Translations under genes and position numbers: made by a program
The notes under the pieces: generated by a model
The model's input: the letters and a program-made list of their open reading frames with translations, nothing else
What the model was told of the DNA's origin: nothing
Database searches by the model: none
In this document: piece after piece, positions 27,473 to 36,442 of the stretch
How the letters are laid out: each line of letters begins with the position of its first letter
Numbering within the stretch: the stretch's first letter is position 1
Origin: Chloroflexota bacterium
Lineage (GTDB): Bacteria; Chloroflexota; Anaerolineae; Anaerolineales; Anaerolineaceae
Reading direction: 5' to 3'
DNA length: 41,024 bases
Assembly (NCBI GenBank): GCA_021789855.1
Contig: JAJYIW010000004.1
Span: forward strand, 1 to 41,024

Positions 27473-28576
27473 ATGGCGGCAAAGATCCTGGTCCTGACTC
27501 CCCAATCTGCCTTTGGTGAACTGATCCGCCAGAGCCTGGAACAAGCCGGCCGGTACCAGGTCCAGGTCAGCCTGACGGCCAACAGCGCCATGGCTCAGGC
27601 GCAAAAGAACCTTTTTGACCTGGCTATCCTGGACTCCGATCTGGGCGCCAGAGTCATCCAACGAACCGGACAGGCTCTCATGGATCGCCACCCGCCCATC
27701 AAGCTTGTGGCTATCTCACCCGCCAACCCCCAGGATCAGTCGATTATTGAAGAACTGCACCCCCAGGCCTACCTTGCTAAACCATTTTACCTGCCCGATC
27801 TGATCGCGTCCCTCGAGGCCATTTTATCAGGCCCGCCAACCGCTGAACCGGTTCGATCTGAGCCTCGACCCGATGAGGATTCCCTGGCCCAGACCAAACC
27901 CCTGATCAGGACAGGGAGACCAGCCGTGACAGCGCCCCCTGCCGTTATGATCGAGGTAACCCATGACCGCGAAAGCGATGCGGAATTAGCCCCACCACCT
28001 GAAGAAGACCTTGCACCCCGTCCCGCTGATCAATGGCTTGTGGCCGCTTCCTGGTTTAAGGAAAATGAGGGTAAGACGGTGCCGTTGATGGGATTATCCC
28101 CCCAGGCTGATTCCGGCCAGCCAGGTGACACAACCCCCATCAGGATCCACATGCCCCAGTCGGCCACTCACCTTGAACCCCTTCCATCTATATTGACTAA
28201 GCCGGTATACGCCTCTGCCCTGGTCCCACGCATCGCCCAACACTACCTTACGGGTGAACTGGCTGAACGGCTTGGCCAGTGGGTCCCCCAACTCTGCCTG
28301 GCTTTGGGTTGGAGCCTGGAAAGCTTACGGGTGCGCCCGGATTATATGGAGTGGGCTCTGCGGATACCACCCACTTTATCCCCAGGCAAGATGTTGCGGA
28401 TTATCCGCGAACGCACCTCTGAACGAGTTTTCTTGGCCTATCAAAAGCTCCGGGATGAAAATCCGTCAGGCAATTTCTGGGCGCCTGGTTTTCTGATTGT
28501 CAGCGGCGTTCATACGCTCCCCTTACCCGCATTGCGCAAATACATTATTGAGATGCGCCAACGACAGGGCGTTTAA
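27473..28576 (+). CDS. Receiver-like domain fused to degenerate IS200-type (Y1) transposase-like domain
   Basis: A 367-residue fusion. Residues 1-118 read as a response-regulator receiver: KILVLTP, LAILDSDLG (Asp54), VAISPAN (Ser82), AKPFYLP (Lys103). The usual acidic pair after the first strand is replaced by Thr-Pro, so it may not be phosphorylated. A Pro-rich linker runs from 120 to about 240. Residues about 245-367 resemble the IS200/IS605 TnpA fold: YLTGELAERL, then LGWSLESLRVRPD, IPPTLSPGKM, RERTSERVF, FWAPGFLIVSG and LRKYIIEMRQ. The transposase His-x-His is replaced by Tyr291-Met-Glu293, while the presumed catalytic Tyr357 remains 66 residues later. It therefore looks like a domesticated DNA-binding domain. 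It precedes polA by 38 bp. The match is by eye. Confidence 0.75.
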   Translation: MAAKILVLTPQSAFGELIRQSLEQAGRYQVQVSLTANSAMAQAQKNLFDLAILDSDLGARVIQRTGQALMDRHPPIKLVAISPANPQDQSIIEELHPQAYLAKPFYLPDLIASLEAILSGPPTAEPVRSEPRPDEDSLAQTKPLIRTGRPAVTAPPAVMIEVTHDRESDAELAPPPEEDLAPRPADQWLVAASWFKENEGKTVPLMGLSPQADSGQPGDTTPIRIHMPQSATHLEPLPSILTKPVYASALVPRIAQHYLTGELAERLGQWVPQLCLALGWSLESLRVRPDYMEWALRIPPTLSPGKMLRIIRERTSERVFLAYQKLRDENPSGNFWAPGFLIVSGVHTLPLPALRKYIIEMRQRQGV

Positions 28577-28614: not shown

Positions 28615-31419
28615 ATGCCACCTGCTCTTTATTTGATTGACGGCCACGCACTGGCTTATCGCACGTATTTCGCCCTTACCGCAGCTGCACCTGGAGGTGA
28701 GCGCTGGCGGACAAAGGACGGTGAACCGACGGCCGGTATTTACGGCTTTGCCAGCGTCCTGCTGCGCATCCTGGAACAGGAACGCCCCGATTTTCTCGCC
28801 GTAGCCTTTGATACGGGTAAAACCTTCCGCGATGATATCTTTGCCGAGTATAAAGGGACGCGCGCTAAAATGCCGGATGACCTCCGGCCACAGATAGAAC
28901 GCATCCGCCAGTTGGTGGACGCATTTAACATCCCCCGCTTGGAAGTTGAGGGCTACGAGGCGGATGACATTCTAGGCACCGTGGCACACCTTGTCGCCAA
29001 CCAGGGGCTAGGCGTTAAGATTATCACCGGCGATCGGGACCTGCTTCAGCTGGTTGACGAACGGATCATCGTGAACCTGGCAGGCAGCAAGCTATCAGAA
29101 GCCAAAGATTACCTGGCTGCCGACGTTGAAGCTTATCTGGGGGTACGACCCGATCAAGTTGTCGATTATAAAGCCCTGGTGGGCGATCCCTCGGATAACA
29201 TTCCGGGAGTAGCCGGCATAGGCGAAAAAACGGCGGTCAAGCTTCTCCAAACTTACGGCACTCTCAAAGCTATTTATGCCCATCTGGATGAGCTCCCCAC
29301 TCGCGCCCGCACCAGCCTGGAGGCAGGCCGCGCCTCGGCTGATTTAAGCTGGAAGCTGGCAAAGATCGTCACCGACGTGCCCATCGTGTTTGACCTGCAA
29401 AAGGCCCGGGCGGAGGATTTTGACCCGGCCGCAGTAGAGGCTCTATTCAGGCAACTCGAGTTCCGCTCCCTGGTGGACCGGCTGATGAGCCTGGCGAAAT
29501 CCTATCACACCTCCCCTGCCGTCTCCCAGCAGCTCACTCTGTTTGAAAGTTATACGCCCGTGGTGATCAGTCCTTCACCAGCCTCCGTGCAAACCCACGT
29601 GGTTAATACGCCTGAAGCGTTGCGCGAGCTGGTACAGGTCTTGCATCATGCTCCCTGGATCGCCTTCGACACGGAAACTACCTCGACCGACCCCATGCGG
29701 GCGGAGTTAGTTGGTATCTCAATGGCTATTAAGGAAGGGGAAGGTTATTATATCCCTGTAGGACATAAAAACGCCGGAGCCGGGCAGCTTCCGGTTCAGG
29801 ATGTATTGGGGGCCATCCGCGGCCCGATGACCAACCCGGCCCAGAAAAAAATGGGGCATAACCTCAAGTACGATTACTTAATGTTGAGCCGTTACGGCCT
29901 GGATGTAGCGCCCCTGGCAATGGATACCATGATCGCCGAGTGGTTAATCGATCCCGGTTCCCACAACCTGGGATTGAAGAACCTGGCCTGGACCCGCCTG
30001 GGCATCCAGATGACTCATATCGAGGAGTTGATCGGCAAGGGTAAAGACCAGATCAGCATGGCAGAGGTACCCGTCGAGGCTGCAGCGGCGTATGCCGCGG
30101 CCGATGCAGAGACAACCTTGCGGTTAAAAACGGTCCTGGAACCCGATCTGGAGAAACAAAAAGCGACCAACCTGTTGAATGATCTGGAAATGCCGCTGGT
30201 CCCCGTCCTGGCCGGTATGGAACGGAGCGGGATCGCCCTGGATGTGCCCTTCTTGAGGATTATGTCAGCCGAGCTGAGCCAGCGGATGGCAGAGCTCGAG
30301 AAGCAAGTTTTTGAAGCAGCCGGAAGGCCGTTCAACCTGAATTCGACCCAGCAACTCGCCAGGGTCTTGTTTGATCAGCTGGGCCTGGAACCTCCCGATC
30401 GACGAAAACGCACCTCCAGCGGTTTTTATTCTACCTCAGCCGAGGTGTTGGAAGAGCTGCGCGGCCGCCATCCTGTCGTGGACTGGATCCTGGAATATCG
30501 CGAGCTGGCCAAGCTGAAATCGACCTACGTCGACGCCCTCCCCGAAGAAATCAACCCGGCGACCGGACGAGTACACACTTCTTACAACCAGACCGGTTCG
30601 GTCACCGGGCGACTGGCGTCCTCCGAGCCAAACCTGCAAAACATTCCCACCCGCACGGATCTGGGCCGGCGAGTACGCCAGGCGTTTATCGCCGGGGAGG
30701 ATAACGTGTTGCTCTCCGTCGATTATTCTCAGATCGAGCTGCGTATTGTCGCCCACATGGCAAGGGACGAAGCCATGCTGGCAGCCTTCCGCGCCGGGCA
30801 GGATATTCACGCCGCGACAGCTGCAGCGATCTACCGCGTGCCCCTCCAGTCTGTCAGCAAAGAACAGCGCCGCCACGCTAAAGCCATCAATTTCGGGTTG
30901 ATCTATGGCATGAGCGCGTATGGTCTGAGCCGCACCACTGACCTGACCCTGGGCGAATCGGAAGATTTTGTCAAAGCTTATTTCACCCAATTCCCGGGCG
31001 TCAAACAGTACCTGGATTCTATCAGGCGGCTGGCTGCTGATCAGGGCTATGTTGAAACCTTGTTGGGCCGGCGCCGCTATTTTCCTGGGCTGAAAACTCA
31101 ATCGAACCAGGCCATTAAGAGCCGCGAAGAACGGGAGGCGATCAACGCGCCTGTTCAAGGAACGGCTGCTGACATCATGAAGTTGGCTATGCTCAGCGTT
31201 CCGGCGGCGCTGACCGATGCTGGGCTCCATGGAAACCTTCTACTCCAGGTTCATGATGAATTGGTGTTAGAATGTTCCTATCATGAACTGGCCCGAACGG
31301 CCAGCCTGGTACAAAAAATCATGGAAAATGCTTATCCATTATCGATACCCCTTCTCACCGAAGCGCGGTGGGGGAAAAATTGGGGGGAAATGAGCCCGCT
31401 CGAGCCAATCCGCCCCTGA
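28615..31419 (+). CDS. polA: DNA polymerase I
   Basis: Repair and Okazaki-fragment polymerase. The 934-residue protein has a 5'-3' flap nuclease domain (1 to about 290) with acidic sites in EVEGYEADDILG and TGDRDLLQLV, and VGDPSDNIPGV. The 3'-5' proofreading domain (about 325-520) keeps IAFDTETT, HNLKYDYLML and YAAADAETTLRL, so proofreading should be active. The polymerase domain has motif A DYSQIELRI (from about 703), motif B KAINFGLIYGMSAYGL (about 755) and motif C QVHDELVLE (about 878). Length is normal. AAGGA lies 11 bases before the ATG. It may be cotranscribed with the receiver/transposase-like gene 38 bp upstream. Confidence 0.98.
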   Translation: MPPALYLIDGHALAYRTYFALTAAAPGGERWRTKDGEPTAGIYGFASVLLRILEQERPDFLAVAFDTGKTFRDDIFAEYKGTRAKMPDDLRPQIERIRQLVDAFNIPRLEVEGYEADDILGTVAHLVANQGLGVKIITGDRDLLQLVDERIIVNLAGSKLSEAKDYLAADVEAYLGVRPDQVVDYKALVGDPSDNIPGVAGIGEKTAVKLLQTYGTLKAIYAHLDELPTRARTSLEAGRASADLSWKLAKIVTDVPIVFDLQKARAEDFDPAAVEALFRQLEFRSLVDRLMSLAKSYHTSPAVSQQLTLFESYTPVVISPSPASVQTHVVNTPEALRELVQVLHHAPWIAFDTETTSTDPMRAELVGISMAIKEGEGYYIPVGHKNAGAGQLPVQDVLGAIRGPMTNPAQKKMGHNLKYDYLMLSRYGLDVAPLAMDTMIAEWLIDPGSHNLGLKNLAWTRLGIQMTHIEELIGKGKDQISMAEVPVEAAAAYAAADAETTLRLKTVLEPDLEKQKATNLLNDLEMPLVPVLAGMERSGIALDVPFLRIMSAELSQRMAELEKQVFEAAGRPFNLNSTQQLARVLFDQLGLEPPDRRKRTSSGFYSTSAEVLEELRGRHPVVDWILEYRELAKLKSTYVDALPEEINPATGRVHTSYNQTGSVTGRLASSEPNLQNIPTRTDLGRRVRQAFIAGEDNVLLSVDYSQIELRIVAHMARDEAMLAAFRAGQDIHAATAAAIYRVPLQSVSKEQRRHAKAINFGLIYGMSAYGLSRTTDLTLGESEDFVKAYFTQFPGVKQYLDSIRRLAADQGYVETLLGRRRYFPGLKTQSNQAIKSREEREAINAPVQGTAADIMKLAMLSVPAALTDAGLHGNLLLQVHDELVLECSYHELARTASLVQKIMENAYPLSIPLLTEARWGKNWGEMSPLEPIRP

Positions 31420-31499: not shown

Positions 31500-33821
31500 A
31501 TGGCTGGAAATCAGGATGAATTCCAAAAATCAATGAACCTCGGACATTCCGCCGTCTGGGATCGCCAATGGGATCAAGCGATAGCTTATTACCGGAAGGC
31601 GCTGGATGAATTCCCAGATAATCCCAAGGCATTGGCCAGTCTGGGATTGGCTTTATACGAACAAAAAGCCTATGACGAAGCCTTATCCTGTTACCGGCGG
31701 GCCGCCGTGGTCAACCCCAATGATCCCATGCCAGTTGAAAAAATAGCCCAGATTAGCGAAGAAATGGGCAAGCTCAATGACGCCACCCGGGCGGCATTAC
31801 AGGCGGCAGACCTTTATATCAAGAATCACGATGTGGACAAGGCCCTCGAAAATTGGGCCCGGGTTACCCGTTATAACCCAGGGCATCTCACAGCCCATTC
31901 TCGCCTGGCCATGACCTACGAGCGGTTGGGACGCAAAGCCGATGCGGTGTCGGAATACCTGGCAGTTGCGTCGATCGTACAACATTCTGGCGATTCGATC
32001 AAAGCTGCCCAGGCGGTGAACTACGCCCTACAAATTTTGCCCGGAAATGATGAGGCTCGCCAGATGTTGAGCCTGATAAAAACCAACCAGCCCCTTCCCA
32101 GCCCAGGCAGCGCCTCCTCAAAAACCGGGCCGCAATCATCCGAGCGACCTCGAAAGACGGACACGAGCGTTACAACCGGTGGAGCGCCGGATCAACTGGA
32201 CCCCATCGCAGAAGCGCGACAAAAAGCATTGAGCATCCTGGCTGGCTTTTTATTTGAACAAGATGAGGGGCCATCCAGCGAGCCGGTCACCCGCCGGGGA
32301 CTATCTTCCATCACCCGCGGAAACGGCCAGGTATCCTCTGAAGCAGTCGAACATACCCGAGCCATGTTGCACTTGAACCAGGCTGTTGACGCTCAAACGC
32401 AATCCAATTTTCGGGACGCTGCCACTGAGCTGCAAAAAGCCATCGACTCTGGCCTCAATCAGCCGGCAGCCTGGTTCGATCTGGGCCTTATCCTGTGTCA
32501 GAACTCCCAGTGGGATCTTGCGATCGCCAATCTGAAGCTGGCCGTCAAGCACTCCGACTATACCCTGGCATCTCGCCTGCTCATGGGAAACGCGCTCAGG
32601 CAATCAGGCCATCTACCTGAGGCAGCCATCGAGTACCTTGAGGCGCTCAAAGTAGCAGATTCGTTGACCGTCCCGCCCAGCCAGGCAGACGAGATACGCC
32701 AGCTCTATGAGCCGCTTATTGACGCCCAGGCCCGGCAGCGCGATGAAAAGGCCATGGTTGATTTGTGCGACAGCATTGAGGCGAATCTCAGGTCACCCGA
32801 TTGGCGAGAAAAAATGGAACGCGCCCGGCAGCAGCTCGCCCAACAGTCCGAAGGGATCTTACCCCTGGCAGAAATCCTCCTCCAGCGCCATAGCAGCCAG
32901 GTGGTCGAATCGCTCATCGATATCCGGAAGTTAATCCAGAAAAACCAACCGCGCACTGCCATGGAAGAGGCCTATTTTGCCTTGAAGTTCGCGCCTACCT
33001 ACCTGCCTCTCCATATCCAAATCGGTGAGTTATTACTGCAGGAGAATCATCTCAAGGAAGCGATAGAAAAATTTCAGATCGCCGCTCGGGCCTACAACAG
33101 CCGGGGAGAAACGCTGCAAGCTGCCAAGCTTTTGCGCCGTGTCATCGCGCTGAACCCGCGCGACCTCTCAGTTCGCAATCAGCTCATCGAGCAATTGATC
33201 AACCAGGGAGAAATAGACGAAGCGATCCGCGAGTCGATGGATCTGGCCGACATTTACTTCCGCCTGGCCGAGCTAGACCTGTCCCGCAAAACTTACCTGG
33301 CAAGCTTAAAGATTGCCCAGCAATCCACGGCCAATCGTTCCTGGAGTGTGCAAATACTCTACCGGTTGGCCGACACCGATATGCAACGTCTCGAGTGGCG
33401 CCAGGCCATGCGCATTTATGAGCAAGTTCGCACTTTGAAACCAGACGACGCCAAAGCGCGACTCAACCTGGTGGACATCAATTTTCGAATAGGCCAGGAC
33501 AGCGCAGCCATCAATGAAGTGGACAGTTATTTAAGCTACCTGGATGCTTCTCACCAGACCAGCCAGGGGCTGGACTTCCTTAAGGGTGTGGTCACCGACC
33601 ATTCGGATAAGGTTGAGCTGCACCAACGCCTGGCGGAAGCGTACAGCCGGGCAGGCATGAAGGCTGAAACCATCGCTGAATTGGATACTATTGGAGATAT
33701 GCTGATGAGTGCAGGGAACCGGTCAGGAGCGATTAAAGCGATCCAACAGATCATCAGCTTCAACCCCCCCGATGCGCTGGAATATCAACGCTTGCTCGAA
33801 CAACTTCAGGAAAAATCCTGA
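31500..33821 (+). CDS. Large tetratricopeptide-repeat protein
   Basis: A 773-residue soluble protein made mainly of TPR helices; no signal peptide or membrane helix. Clear repeats include WDQAIAYYRKALDEFPDNPKALASLGLALYEQK near 20-52, further copies to about 185, a low-complexity hinge (about 190-225) rich in Ser/Pro/Thr, and a second TPR block from about 285 to the end (for example RDAATELQKAIDSGLNQPAAWFDLGLIL and LKEAIEKFQIAARAY). Such proteins are scaffolds for complexes; partner and pathway are unknown. It has its own promoter and lies downstream of polA in the same direction. Ten bases separate it from a convergent gene. Confidence 0.9.
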   Translation: MAGNQDEFQKSMNLGHSAVWDRQWDQAIAYYRKALDEFPDNPKALASLGLALYEQKAYDEALSCYRRAAVVNPNDPMPVEKIAQISEEMGKLNDATRAALQAADLYIKNHDVDKALENWARVTRYNPGHLTAHSRLAMTYERLGRKADAVSEYLAVASIVQHSGDSIKAAQAVNYALQILPGNDEARQMLSLIKTNQPLPSPGSASSKTGPQSSERPRKTDTSVTTGGAPDQLDPIAEARQKALSILAGFLFEQDEGPSSEPVTRRGLSSITRGNGQVSSEAVEHTRAMLHLNQAVDAQTQSNFRDAATELQKAIDSGLNQPAAWFDLGLILCQNSQWDLAIANLKLAVKHSDYTLASRLLMGNALRQSGHLPEAAIEYLEALKVADSLTVPPSQADEIRQLYEPLIDAQARQRDEKAMVDLCDSIEANLRSPDWREKMERARQQLAQQSEGILPLAEILLQRHSSQVVESLIDIRKLIQKNQPRTAMEEAYFALKFAPTYLPLHIQIGELLLQENHLKEAIEKFQIAARAYNSRGETLQAAKLLRRVIALNPRDLSVRNQLIEQLINQGEIDEAIRESMDLADIYFRLAELDLSRKTYLASLKIAQQSTANRSWSVQILYRLADTDMQRLEWRQAMRIYEQVRTLKPDDAKARLNLVDINFRIGQDSAAINEVDSYLSYLDASHQTSQGLDFLKGVVTDHSDKVELHQRLAEAYSRAGMKAETIAELDTIGDMLMSAGNRSGAIKAIQQIISFNPPDALEYQRLLEQLQEKS

Positions 33822-34941: not shown

Positions 34942-36288
34942 CTAGGCGGGTAAATGGCTTATCCCATAAAGGGATTCGCGGATCTGAATCACTTGCCGGC
35001 GCAGGCGATCATCGCGTTCAAGCATATCCGCAACTTTATCACAGGCATACATCACGGTGGTATGATCGCGCCCGCCCAGCACCTCTCCAATCTGGGGTAA
35101 GGACACATTGCCCTCTTCTCGCAGCAAATACATGGCTACTTGCCGTGGAAGGGCCACTTCTCGTGACCGGCTACGCCCTAACAGGTCCTCTGAACTGATC
35201 CCAAAAGCATTAGCCACCACGGATACCACCCGATCGGGCGCAAGCAGGTTGCGTTGTGGCAACAGATCCGCCAGGGAAGTGGTTACAAGCTGGACCGTCA
35301 AGGGTAACCCGCTAAGATCTGAGAACGCCAGGACGCGCGTCAGGGCGCCCTCCAGCTCGCGGATATTCGATTGAACCATGCGGGCAATGTTTTCGAGAAT
35401 CTCGTTGGGGACATTTCTCCCCGATCGGGCTGCTTTCGAACGCAGTATGGCTATACGCGTTTCAAGATCTGGCGGTTGAATGTCCGCAGTCAATCCCCAT
35501 AGGAAGCGCGACCGGTAACGCTCTTCTAATGTGACCAGGGCCTTAGGAGGCCGGTCCGAAGTCATCACAATCTGTTTATCCTGGCCATGCAAGGTATTGA
35601 AGGTATGGAAAAATTCTTCCTGTGTCGACTCTTTACCCGCGATAAACTGGATGTCATCGATGAGTAGAACGTCAACCTGGCGGTATTTCTCACGGAAAGC
35701 GGGGGTCGTGTGCTTAAAGATGGCGTTGATGATCTCATTGGTAAATTCTTCCGAGGAAACATACAATACTCGCAGACCCTTTTGCAGGACAACATTGCCA
35801 ATCGCGTGCAACAGGTGGGTCTTCCCAAGCCCCACCCCACCGTACAGAAATAACGGGTTATACGCGTTGGCCGGTTCCTCCGCGACTGCCATGCAGGCAG
35901 CATGCGCCAGGCGATTGCTTGCCCCAACCACAAAATTCTCAAAGGTATACCGCGGGTTGATATGGGTTTCTGTTGAGGCCTTACCCTCGCCAGGCTCAAA
36001 GCTACTCGGTTCCCCTGGTTCTTTTTCTTCGGCGATCGAATCACCCTGCATGACCACAAAGCGTACGCCTGCCTGGCGGTCCACCATGCCGGTCAGCATC
36101 CGGTTGATGGTATTCGTCAGGCGGCTTTCCAGCCAATCGCGCGCATAAGCGTTTTTTACCCCGATGGTAAAAAGGCCATCTTGATAAGCCATCAAGGTTG
36201 AGCTGCGTACCCAGGTATCGAAGGAAGCTTTGGACATGTCCATCTGTAGCTGCCCTATGGTTGCCTGCCATGCCTGATCTGCATTCAT
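34942..36288 (-). CDS. dnaA: Chromosomal replication initiator DnaA
   Basis: AAA+ ATPase that binds DnaA boxes and opens oriC. The 448-residue protein has domain I (1 to about 85, WQATIGQLQMDMSKASFDTW), a short acidic domain II, the AAA+ core with Walker A YGGVGLGKTHLL (149-160) and Walker B VLLIDDIQF (207-215), sensor segments, and domain IV with the DnaA signature GGRDHTTVMYACDKV near the C-terminus. The start at 36288 matches the conserved N-terminus; a longer frame from 36396 is rejected. GAGG lies about ten bases upstream. Unusually, neither dnaN nor recF is adjacent, and no cluster of DnaA boxes is visible. Confidence 0.98.
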   Translation of the reverse strand: MNADQAWQATIGQLQMDMSKASFDTWVRSSTLMAYQDGLFTIGVKNAYARDWLESRLTNTINRMLTGMVDRQAGVRFVVMQGDSIAEEKEPGEPSSFEPGEGKASTETHINPRYTFENFVVGASNRLAHAACMAVAEEPANAYNPLFLYGGVGLGKTHLLHAIGNVVLQKGLRVLYVSSEEFTNEIINAIFKHTTPAFREKYRQVDVLLIDDIQFIAGKESTQEEFFHTFNTLHGQDKQIVMTSDRPPKALVTLEERYRSRFLWGLTADIQPPDLETRIAILRSKAARSGRNVPNEILENIARMVQSNIRELEGALTRVLAFSDLSGLPLTVQLVTTSLADLLPQRNLLAPDRVVSVVANAFGISSEDLLGRSRSREVALPRQVAMYLLREEGNVSLPQIGEVLGGRDHTTVMYACDKVADMLERDDRLRRQVIQIRESLYGISHLPA

Positions 36289-36442
36289 AGTGTCAATTCC
36301 TCTCAAGATGAGACAATAAACAGAGCCAATGCTGGTTCTGCATGAGCTTAATAGAATACATACCCGGCCAGGTAAGAACGCTTTCCTGGCACTCATCAGG
36401 TAAAATTCCTTATTTTTTATGCTGGGGAACTAGCCCTCTCCT

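Follow-up and report, generated by a model that had tools for sequence, protein, structure and literature searches.

An apparently dead IS200/IS605 TnpA domain joined to a receiver and encoded ahead of polA in the Anaerolineales

What is left for a transposase-like domain to do when it has lost its metal-binding histidines and is encoded, behind a signalling domain, directly ahead of the gene for DNA polymerase I? The question is raised by a gene of an Anaerolineaceae bacterium (Chloroflexota), found in the whole stretch of 41,024 nucleotides that was analysed and is called here the window. An original prediction, made from the letters alone, had described the product as a receiver-like domain fused to a domesticated IS200/Y1 transposase domain, which would bind DNA hairpins or REP-like repeats without cutting them. 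The open reading frame is intact and codes for 367 amino acids, the peptides quoted at that time as following the TnpA pattern are all found in it, and it provides the single match to the Pfam family Y1_Tnp in the 3.4-Mb draft genome. The features of the locus are the following:

27473..28576, + strand: whole gene (367 amino acids), atypical receiver, linker and, by sequence and fold, catalytically dead Y1/TnpA domain
27473..27826, + strand: N-terminal receiver fold, residues 1-118, acidic pair gone, Asp54 and Lys103 present (family HMM 8.1e-43)
27827..28183, + strand: Pro-rich linker, residues 119-237, without the MglB/roadblock-like domain of 112 of the 118 family members
28184..28573, + strand: C-terminal domain of Y1/TnpA fold, residues 238-367
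28343..28351, + strand: former His-x-His metal site, now Tyr291-Met292-Glu293 (Tyr-x-Gln in the family)
28541..28543, + strand: Tyr357, where TnpA has its nucleophile (Tyr in 73, Phe in 44 and Leu in 1 of the family)
28553..28555, + strand: Met361, at the position of the Gln metal ligand (Q131 in IS608; Thr in 97 of 118 members)
28615..31419, + strand: polA, DNA polymerase I with 5'-3' exonuclease, 3'-5' exonuclease and polymerase domains, conserved neighbour 38 bp downstream
31500..33821, + strand: gene for a TPR protein, second conserved downstream neighbour (84 loci)

The Y1 domain and its former active site

Sequence and fold both identify the C-terminal domain as an IS200/IS605 TnpA (Y1) domain, as the original prediction had claimed. 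Residues 250-358 match the Pfam family Y1_Tnp (score 40.6 bits, cut-off 23; E 3.3e-10), and each of the 38 sequences of the family alignment A1 has a match to it as well. The score for the NCBIfam model transpos_IS200 is 42.4 bits and thus below its equivalog cut-off of 55, as expected for a protein off the transposase line. A profile of the family finds the solved TnpA structures 2ec2 (1.5e-19), 2f4f (4e-18), 2xm3 of ISDra2 (1.2e-16) and 2a6m of IS608 (1.8e-9), and in the profile alignment the TnpA motif DHIHL falls on [DE]YLQW of the family. Moreover, the AlphaFold model of this Y1 domain (pLDDT 91.7) retrieves ISDra2 TnpA in Foldseek with an E value of 1.6e-10, and further matches of the same fold include 2fyx (TM 0.76/0.78, rmsd 2.3) and the RAYT structure 4er8 (3e-4).

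In IS608, D61, H64, H66 and Q131 bind the metal and Y127 acts as nucleophile (PMC5934647). Not one of 118 family members keeps both metal-binding histidines, against 26 of 28 TnpAs from the same phylum: the equivalent of H64 is Tyr in 105 members, that of H66 is Gln in 101, and the glutamine ligand has given way mostly to Thr. The replacement of His-x-His by Tyr-Met-Glu in the protein of the window was read correctly and is part of a family-wide loss, the usual form of which is Tyr-x-Gln, so that Tyr-Met-Glu itself is a variant and the Tyr-x-Glu pattern is not what homologs conserve. A similar correction applies to Tyr357, which does lie at the catalytic spacing but is probably no retained catalytic residue, since its column interchanges Tyr and Phe, and Tyr-to-Phe mutants of TnpA-REP are without cleavage (PMC8266576). 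Judged by sequence and fold, the Y1 active site of the family is destroyed and the domain catalytically dead. The family resembles the IS200/IS605 TnpAs (PF01797, with ISDra2 and IS608) in the fold, length and motif order of this domain, but it lacks the His-x-His and the Gln ligand, makes the Tyr optional, is fused to signalling domains, and usually occurs as one chromosomal copy beside polA with no sign of mobility.

Receiver, middle domain and descent of the family

The N-terminal part was predicted to be a receiver fold that had lost its acidic pair, and this description holds. In the protein of the window the Pfam receiver match is weak (23.1 bits, cut-off 30.2), and the fold is clear by structure in a relative, which matches Spo0F with a TM score of 0.81. 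Across 102 members Asp54 is present in 101 and Lys103 in 85, and the positions of the acidic pair are occupied by other residues, with Thr or Ser at position 9 in 97 and Pro, Ala, Ser or Thr at position 10 in most. The fold, Asp54 and Lys103 are shared with atypical (pseudo-)receivers, from which the family differs in being without the acidic pair for Mg.

Most relatives carry a third domain. Where a Y1 domain is present (118 members), all three domains, receiver, middle and Y1, occur together in 100, and 12 consist of middle domain and Y1; in four Y1 alone is detected, some of these being cut by contig ends. Just two, our gene and L062, have receiver and Y1 without the middle domain. This domain matches MglB in profile comparison (6h5b, E 6.5e-4) as well as in structure (6hjm, TM 0.65) and can on these grounds be called roadblock-like, although Pfam gives it no reliable name (best Fuz_longin_3 and Robl_LC7, E 0.02-0.08). 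It resembles MglB and the roadblock-LC7 proteins, but no GTPase gene is found among the conserved neighbours of the family. The copy in the window has lost the MglB/roadblock-like domain typical of the family, and the two-domain picture of the first reading is thus atypical. Another widespread element is a motif of the disordered linker, ILxDIPxPxP, seen in 85 of 112 members (e.g., L117:817-2400) and in 1.5% of shuffled linkers, which is a possible docking site; most of it has been lost in our copy as well, and the Y1 domain has been kept.

Several members deviate from the common architecture in other ways. Those at L077, L086, L089, L100, L103, L108, L113 and L125 have no receiver and start with the roadblock-like domain, and no separate receiver gene was found near them. 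Receiver proteins of the family adjoining polA at L060:2569-3489, L063:1941-2720 and L068:6955-7914 are without a detectable Y1 domain, apparently by loss, which indicates that Y1 is dispensable in places.

As to the spread of the family, matches to the full-length protein occurred in 52 of 61 genomes (its own and relatives), the best covering Y1 and the weak ones being ordinary response regulators. Used as a single query against genome contigs the protein found no match, whereas the family alignment did, and an alignment search of GTDB representatives revealed relatives at 201 loci, of which 80 were kept; these are recorded mostly as Anaerolineales, Anaerolineae or Chloroflexota and include the cultivated Longilinea arvoryzae. 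In a sample of 301 genomes of the phylum, matches below E 1e-43 occurred solely in the order of our gene, and those in other orders had E values of 3e-23 or weaker and were mostly short, TnpA-sized frames. In a sample of 300 genomes of the order, 204 matched at 1e-6 and about 188 at E ≤ 1e-24, usually as a single copy. The weak matches that were inspected turned out to be either diverged dead members beside polA (L212, L214-L217, L219, L225, L226 and L238) or ordinary TnpA, and 13 genomes without a match have a polA whose adjoining 1.5 kb holds no family member.

The idea of a domesticated domain can be made more precise with a maximum-likelihood tree of 72 domains, where a single branch (length 1.42, support 100/99.9) divides the 28 TnpAs included from all dead domains. 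This split and the synteny point to one domestication followed by vertical descent, that is, to a single long-lived lineage linked to polA; standalone paralogs arose later, within family f12. The family does not behave as a mobile element, for it usually has one copy, and its synteny with polA holds throughout the order. Neither a recent IS insertion nor a pseudogene was retained as a reading, given the family-wide conservation and vertical inheritance. An anti-phage role was checked with PADLOC, which did not match the protein.

The exaptation of TnpB, the RNA-guided partner of TnpA, is well documented, whereas the literature searched yielded no paper describing an order-wide family of TnpA that is catalytically dead and bears signalling domains. 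In this regard, a classification of TnpA-Y1 proteins retained, as likely active, just those in which both the HuH and the Y motif are intact (PMC6006769), a filter that leaves out dead families by design.

The polA neighbourhood and a stem-loop in family f12

The position ahead of polA, which had been noted for this one gene, is borne out in the family: polA follows on the same strand at a distance of -350 to +500 nt in 67 of the 80 named loci and lies farther off in three, and the ten loci without it include some near a contig edge. On the upstream side no gene is conserved to the degree of polA, and downstream a TPR gene comes after polA. We found no terminator in the 38-bp gap between the gene of the window and polA, and the 120 nt upstream of the gene have no excess of folding potential. 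The family thereby brings a former hairpin-reading transposase together with DNA polymerase I in a major and poorly studied bacterial order. The linkage may reflect shared transcription only.

The window also contains dnaA (34942-36396, - strand), about 3.5 kb past the end of polA, near which there was no clear skew switch and no DnaA-box cluster. It was discarded as a conserved neighbour, as it was not found near polA in relatives.

A dead-Y1 paralog has neighbours of its own. In five of seven loci it lies directly or almost directly upstream of genes for an Mrr-like endonuclease and a TPR protein, with no polA link (L152:4018-4599, L153:4026-4547, L154:3372-3884, L254:5256-5837 and L257:5703-6812). 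These paralogs are mostly of 170-194 amino acids, with about 370 in L257, and a histidine kinase gene occurs at four of the five loci.

In many genomes of the sister family f12, a hairpin is found between the dead-Y1 gene and polA, with the form AAGCGCAGAG-TATAAT-n-CTCTGCGCTT. Its core, GCAGAG-TATAAT-n-CTCTGC, occurs in 29 of 251 genomes, all of them f12 and each with exactly one copy just downstream of the gene (about 1 kb off in G467), whereas a reversed control pattern occurs in none of the 251. Over 1.4 Mb of scanned loci, almost all copies sit 5-103 nt past the stop codon (L034, L035, L077-L079, L097-L120 and others). The positions from -10 to +26 around TATAAT are sharply conserved, and in 23 distinct sequences the ten pairs of the stem, G-T wobbles included, are formed in 99.1% of cells. 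Moreover, four pairs have changed on both sides, in 14 cells against 1.6 in shuffles, a value reached by none of 500 shuffles and abolished when the pair partners are shifted. The stem-loop resembles no Rfam family. A reading of TATAAT as the -10 box of a polA promoter was rejected, as no conserved -35 box accompanies it.

We consider this stem-loop the best candidate ligand of the protein in f12. The genome of our gene, like most families, is without it, so the element backs the idea for the family and not directly for the protein of the window. As a small and specific candidate it makes the use of hairpin recognition after the loss of cutting a testable matter. A simpler view, compatible with any other reading of the protein, is that the element is a mere intrinsic terminator unrelated to it, and to this we give slightly less than an even chance: a GC stem followed by a T-run, just past a stop codon, has the very shape of an intrinsic terminator, and the element is missing in other families that carry the gene. 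A free terminator, however, would be expected to drift, and here the letters of stem and loop (GCAGAG-TATAAT) stay conserved between genera, with a single occurrence in each genome.

A single-copy element of this kind is far from the REP-like targets that had been proposed. The search for them covered 280 kb of the gene's own genome (about 8%) and 400 kb of G047, and in the former no repeated 16-mers were found above shuffled sequence, which goes against high-copy repeats in that part of the genome. The family shares with TnpA-REP (RAYT) a domesticated Y1 domain and, in f12, a hairpin beside the gene; those proteins, however, keep the HuH motif and the Tyr and have many REP copies, whereas the family is dead and its f12 hairpin single-copy. 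In the related genome G047 (L192-L211) we observed, in low copy, short dispersed repeats (CTCGCAATGACA / CGAAGCAATCTC) and a hairpin around ACACTGGGATGGATGTCCC. Among the f12 loci, the contig end at L117:1-96 (- strand) carries a fragment matching the group II intron family RF02001.

Possible functions of the dead domain

The reading that we prefer, with a probability of about 0.5, is that of a dead, domesticated TnpA family acting as a signal-regulated binder of folded nucleic acids tied to polA. Fold, tree and architecture show that a single Y1 domain was domesticated, lost its metal ligands and its need for the Tyr, and was fused behind a receiver (with a roadblock domain in most members, not in that of the window). 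According to this model, the Y1 domain would still bind a folded single strand, either a DNA hairpin or an RNA stem-loop, leaving it uncut, and the N-terminal domains would switch or dock that binding. The target would be the polA unit, either at the level of its transcript or operon or in the form of Pol I acting on its substrate. The protein would then regulate polA expression, as an autoregulator or an attenuator, or assist Pol I by sensing hairpins.

Binding is suggested by the fold, by the retained basic residues and by the neighbouring genes, polA and that of the Mrr-like nuclease. Position 312 is Lys in 100% of TnpA and Arg in 91% of the family, and it lies in a helix that is probably the equivalent of alpha 3, with which TnpA-REP binds DNA (PMC8266576). 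Arginines at 281, 288, 309, 362 and 364 are also conserved in the family, and the net charge of the Y1 domain of the window is +7, close to the TnpA mean of +6.5. What argues against binding is the loss in the family of other basic residues of TnpA, namely the Arg-Arg that follows strand 1 (255-256) and the Lys/Arg at 356, together with a lower median charge of +4. The preferred reading is also weakened by the relatives that stay beside polA without Y1, by the terminator-like shape of the f12 stem-loop and its absence from the genome of our gene and from most families, and by the chance that shared transcription alone accounts for the linkage. A sharper version, in which the dead TnpA is a signal-controlled hairpin reader that binds the single-copy stem-loop or its equivalent and thereby sets the supply of Pol I or recruits it to structured sites of repair, seems to us tentative and rather doubtful.

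The main rival takes the dead Y1 domain as a protein-protein module, a dimer scaffold that no longer binds nucleic acid and belongs to a signalling adaptor, made up of receiver, roadblock domain and docking linker, whose sharing of an operon with polA is incidental; we regard it as possible though unlikely. Roadblock/MglB-like domains do have small GTPases and RomR-type receivers as partners (PMC4316618), the linker motif has a docking-like character, and the lower charge of the family would fit, as would many newly conserved residues that are not of TnpA (NPSGDFWAPGYL, TRxRQG). On the other side stand the conservation of basic 312 and several new arginines, the proximity of both the main family and the paralog to genes of DNA enzymes, and a copy such as ours, in which the roadblock domain is gone, the linker motif is largely lost and Y1 is retained.

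It seems improbable that the protein is an atypical response regulator of the polA operon that binds double-stranded DNA, with the ex-transposase output used like a helix-turn-helix. Inactive HUH-type folds of viral replication proteins bind double-stranded origins, and the combination of receiver and output domain in an operon position would suit a regulator of this sort. Dead transcription factors, TldR, have indeed arisen from TnpB of IS200 origin (PMC13418256). However, Y1 proteins of the TnpA type recognise folded single strands (PMC8266576, PMC5934647), the wobble pairs of the f12 element fit a folded strand and not a duplex palindrome, and the region upstream of the gene is not unusually foldable. 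Finally, an active nuclease with another metal site or none deserves very little credence. Tyr357 is present, its column is aromatic in all but one member and a Tyr/Gln pair stands in place of the His pair, but the family as a whole has other residues for both histidines and for the Gln ligand, 44 of 118 members have Phe at the nucleophile position, and TnpA-REP with Phe in place of its Tyr fails to cleave (PMC8266576).

The preferred reading, that of a regulated binder of folded nucleic acids, brings the family close to TldR, which likewise goes back to an IS200/IS605 enzyme, has lost its catalysis and has acquired a new gene as neighbour (PMC13418256). TldR, an RNA-guided protein, descends from TnpB and the family from TnpA, so that the latter is best called the TnpA counterpart of the dead TnpB repressors, a role that it would fully take if it proved to be a hairpin reader.

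Two IS200 TnpA copies seemingly in the course of degeneration, in which one of the HUH histidines has been exchanged, were also seen at L229:1447-1869 and L170:2002-2388.
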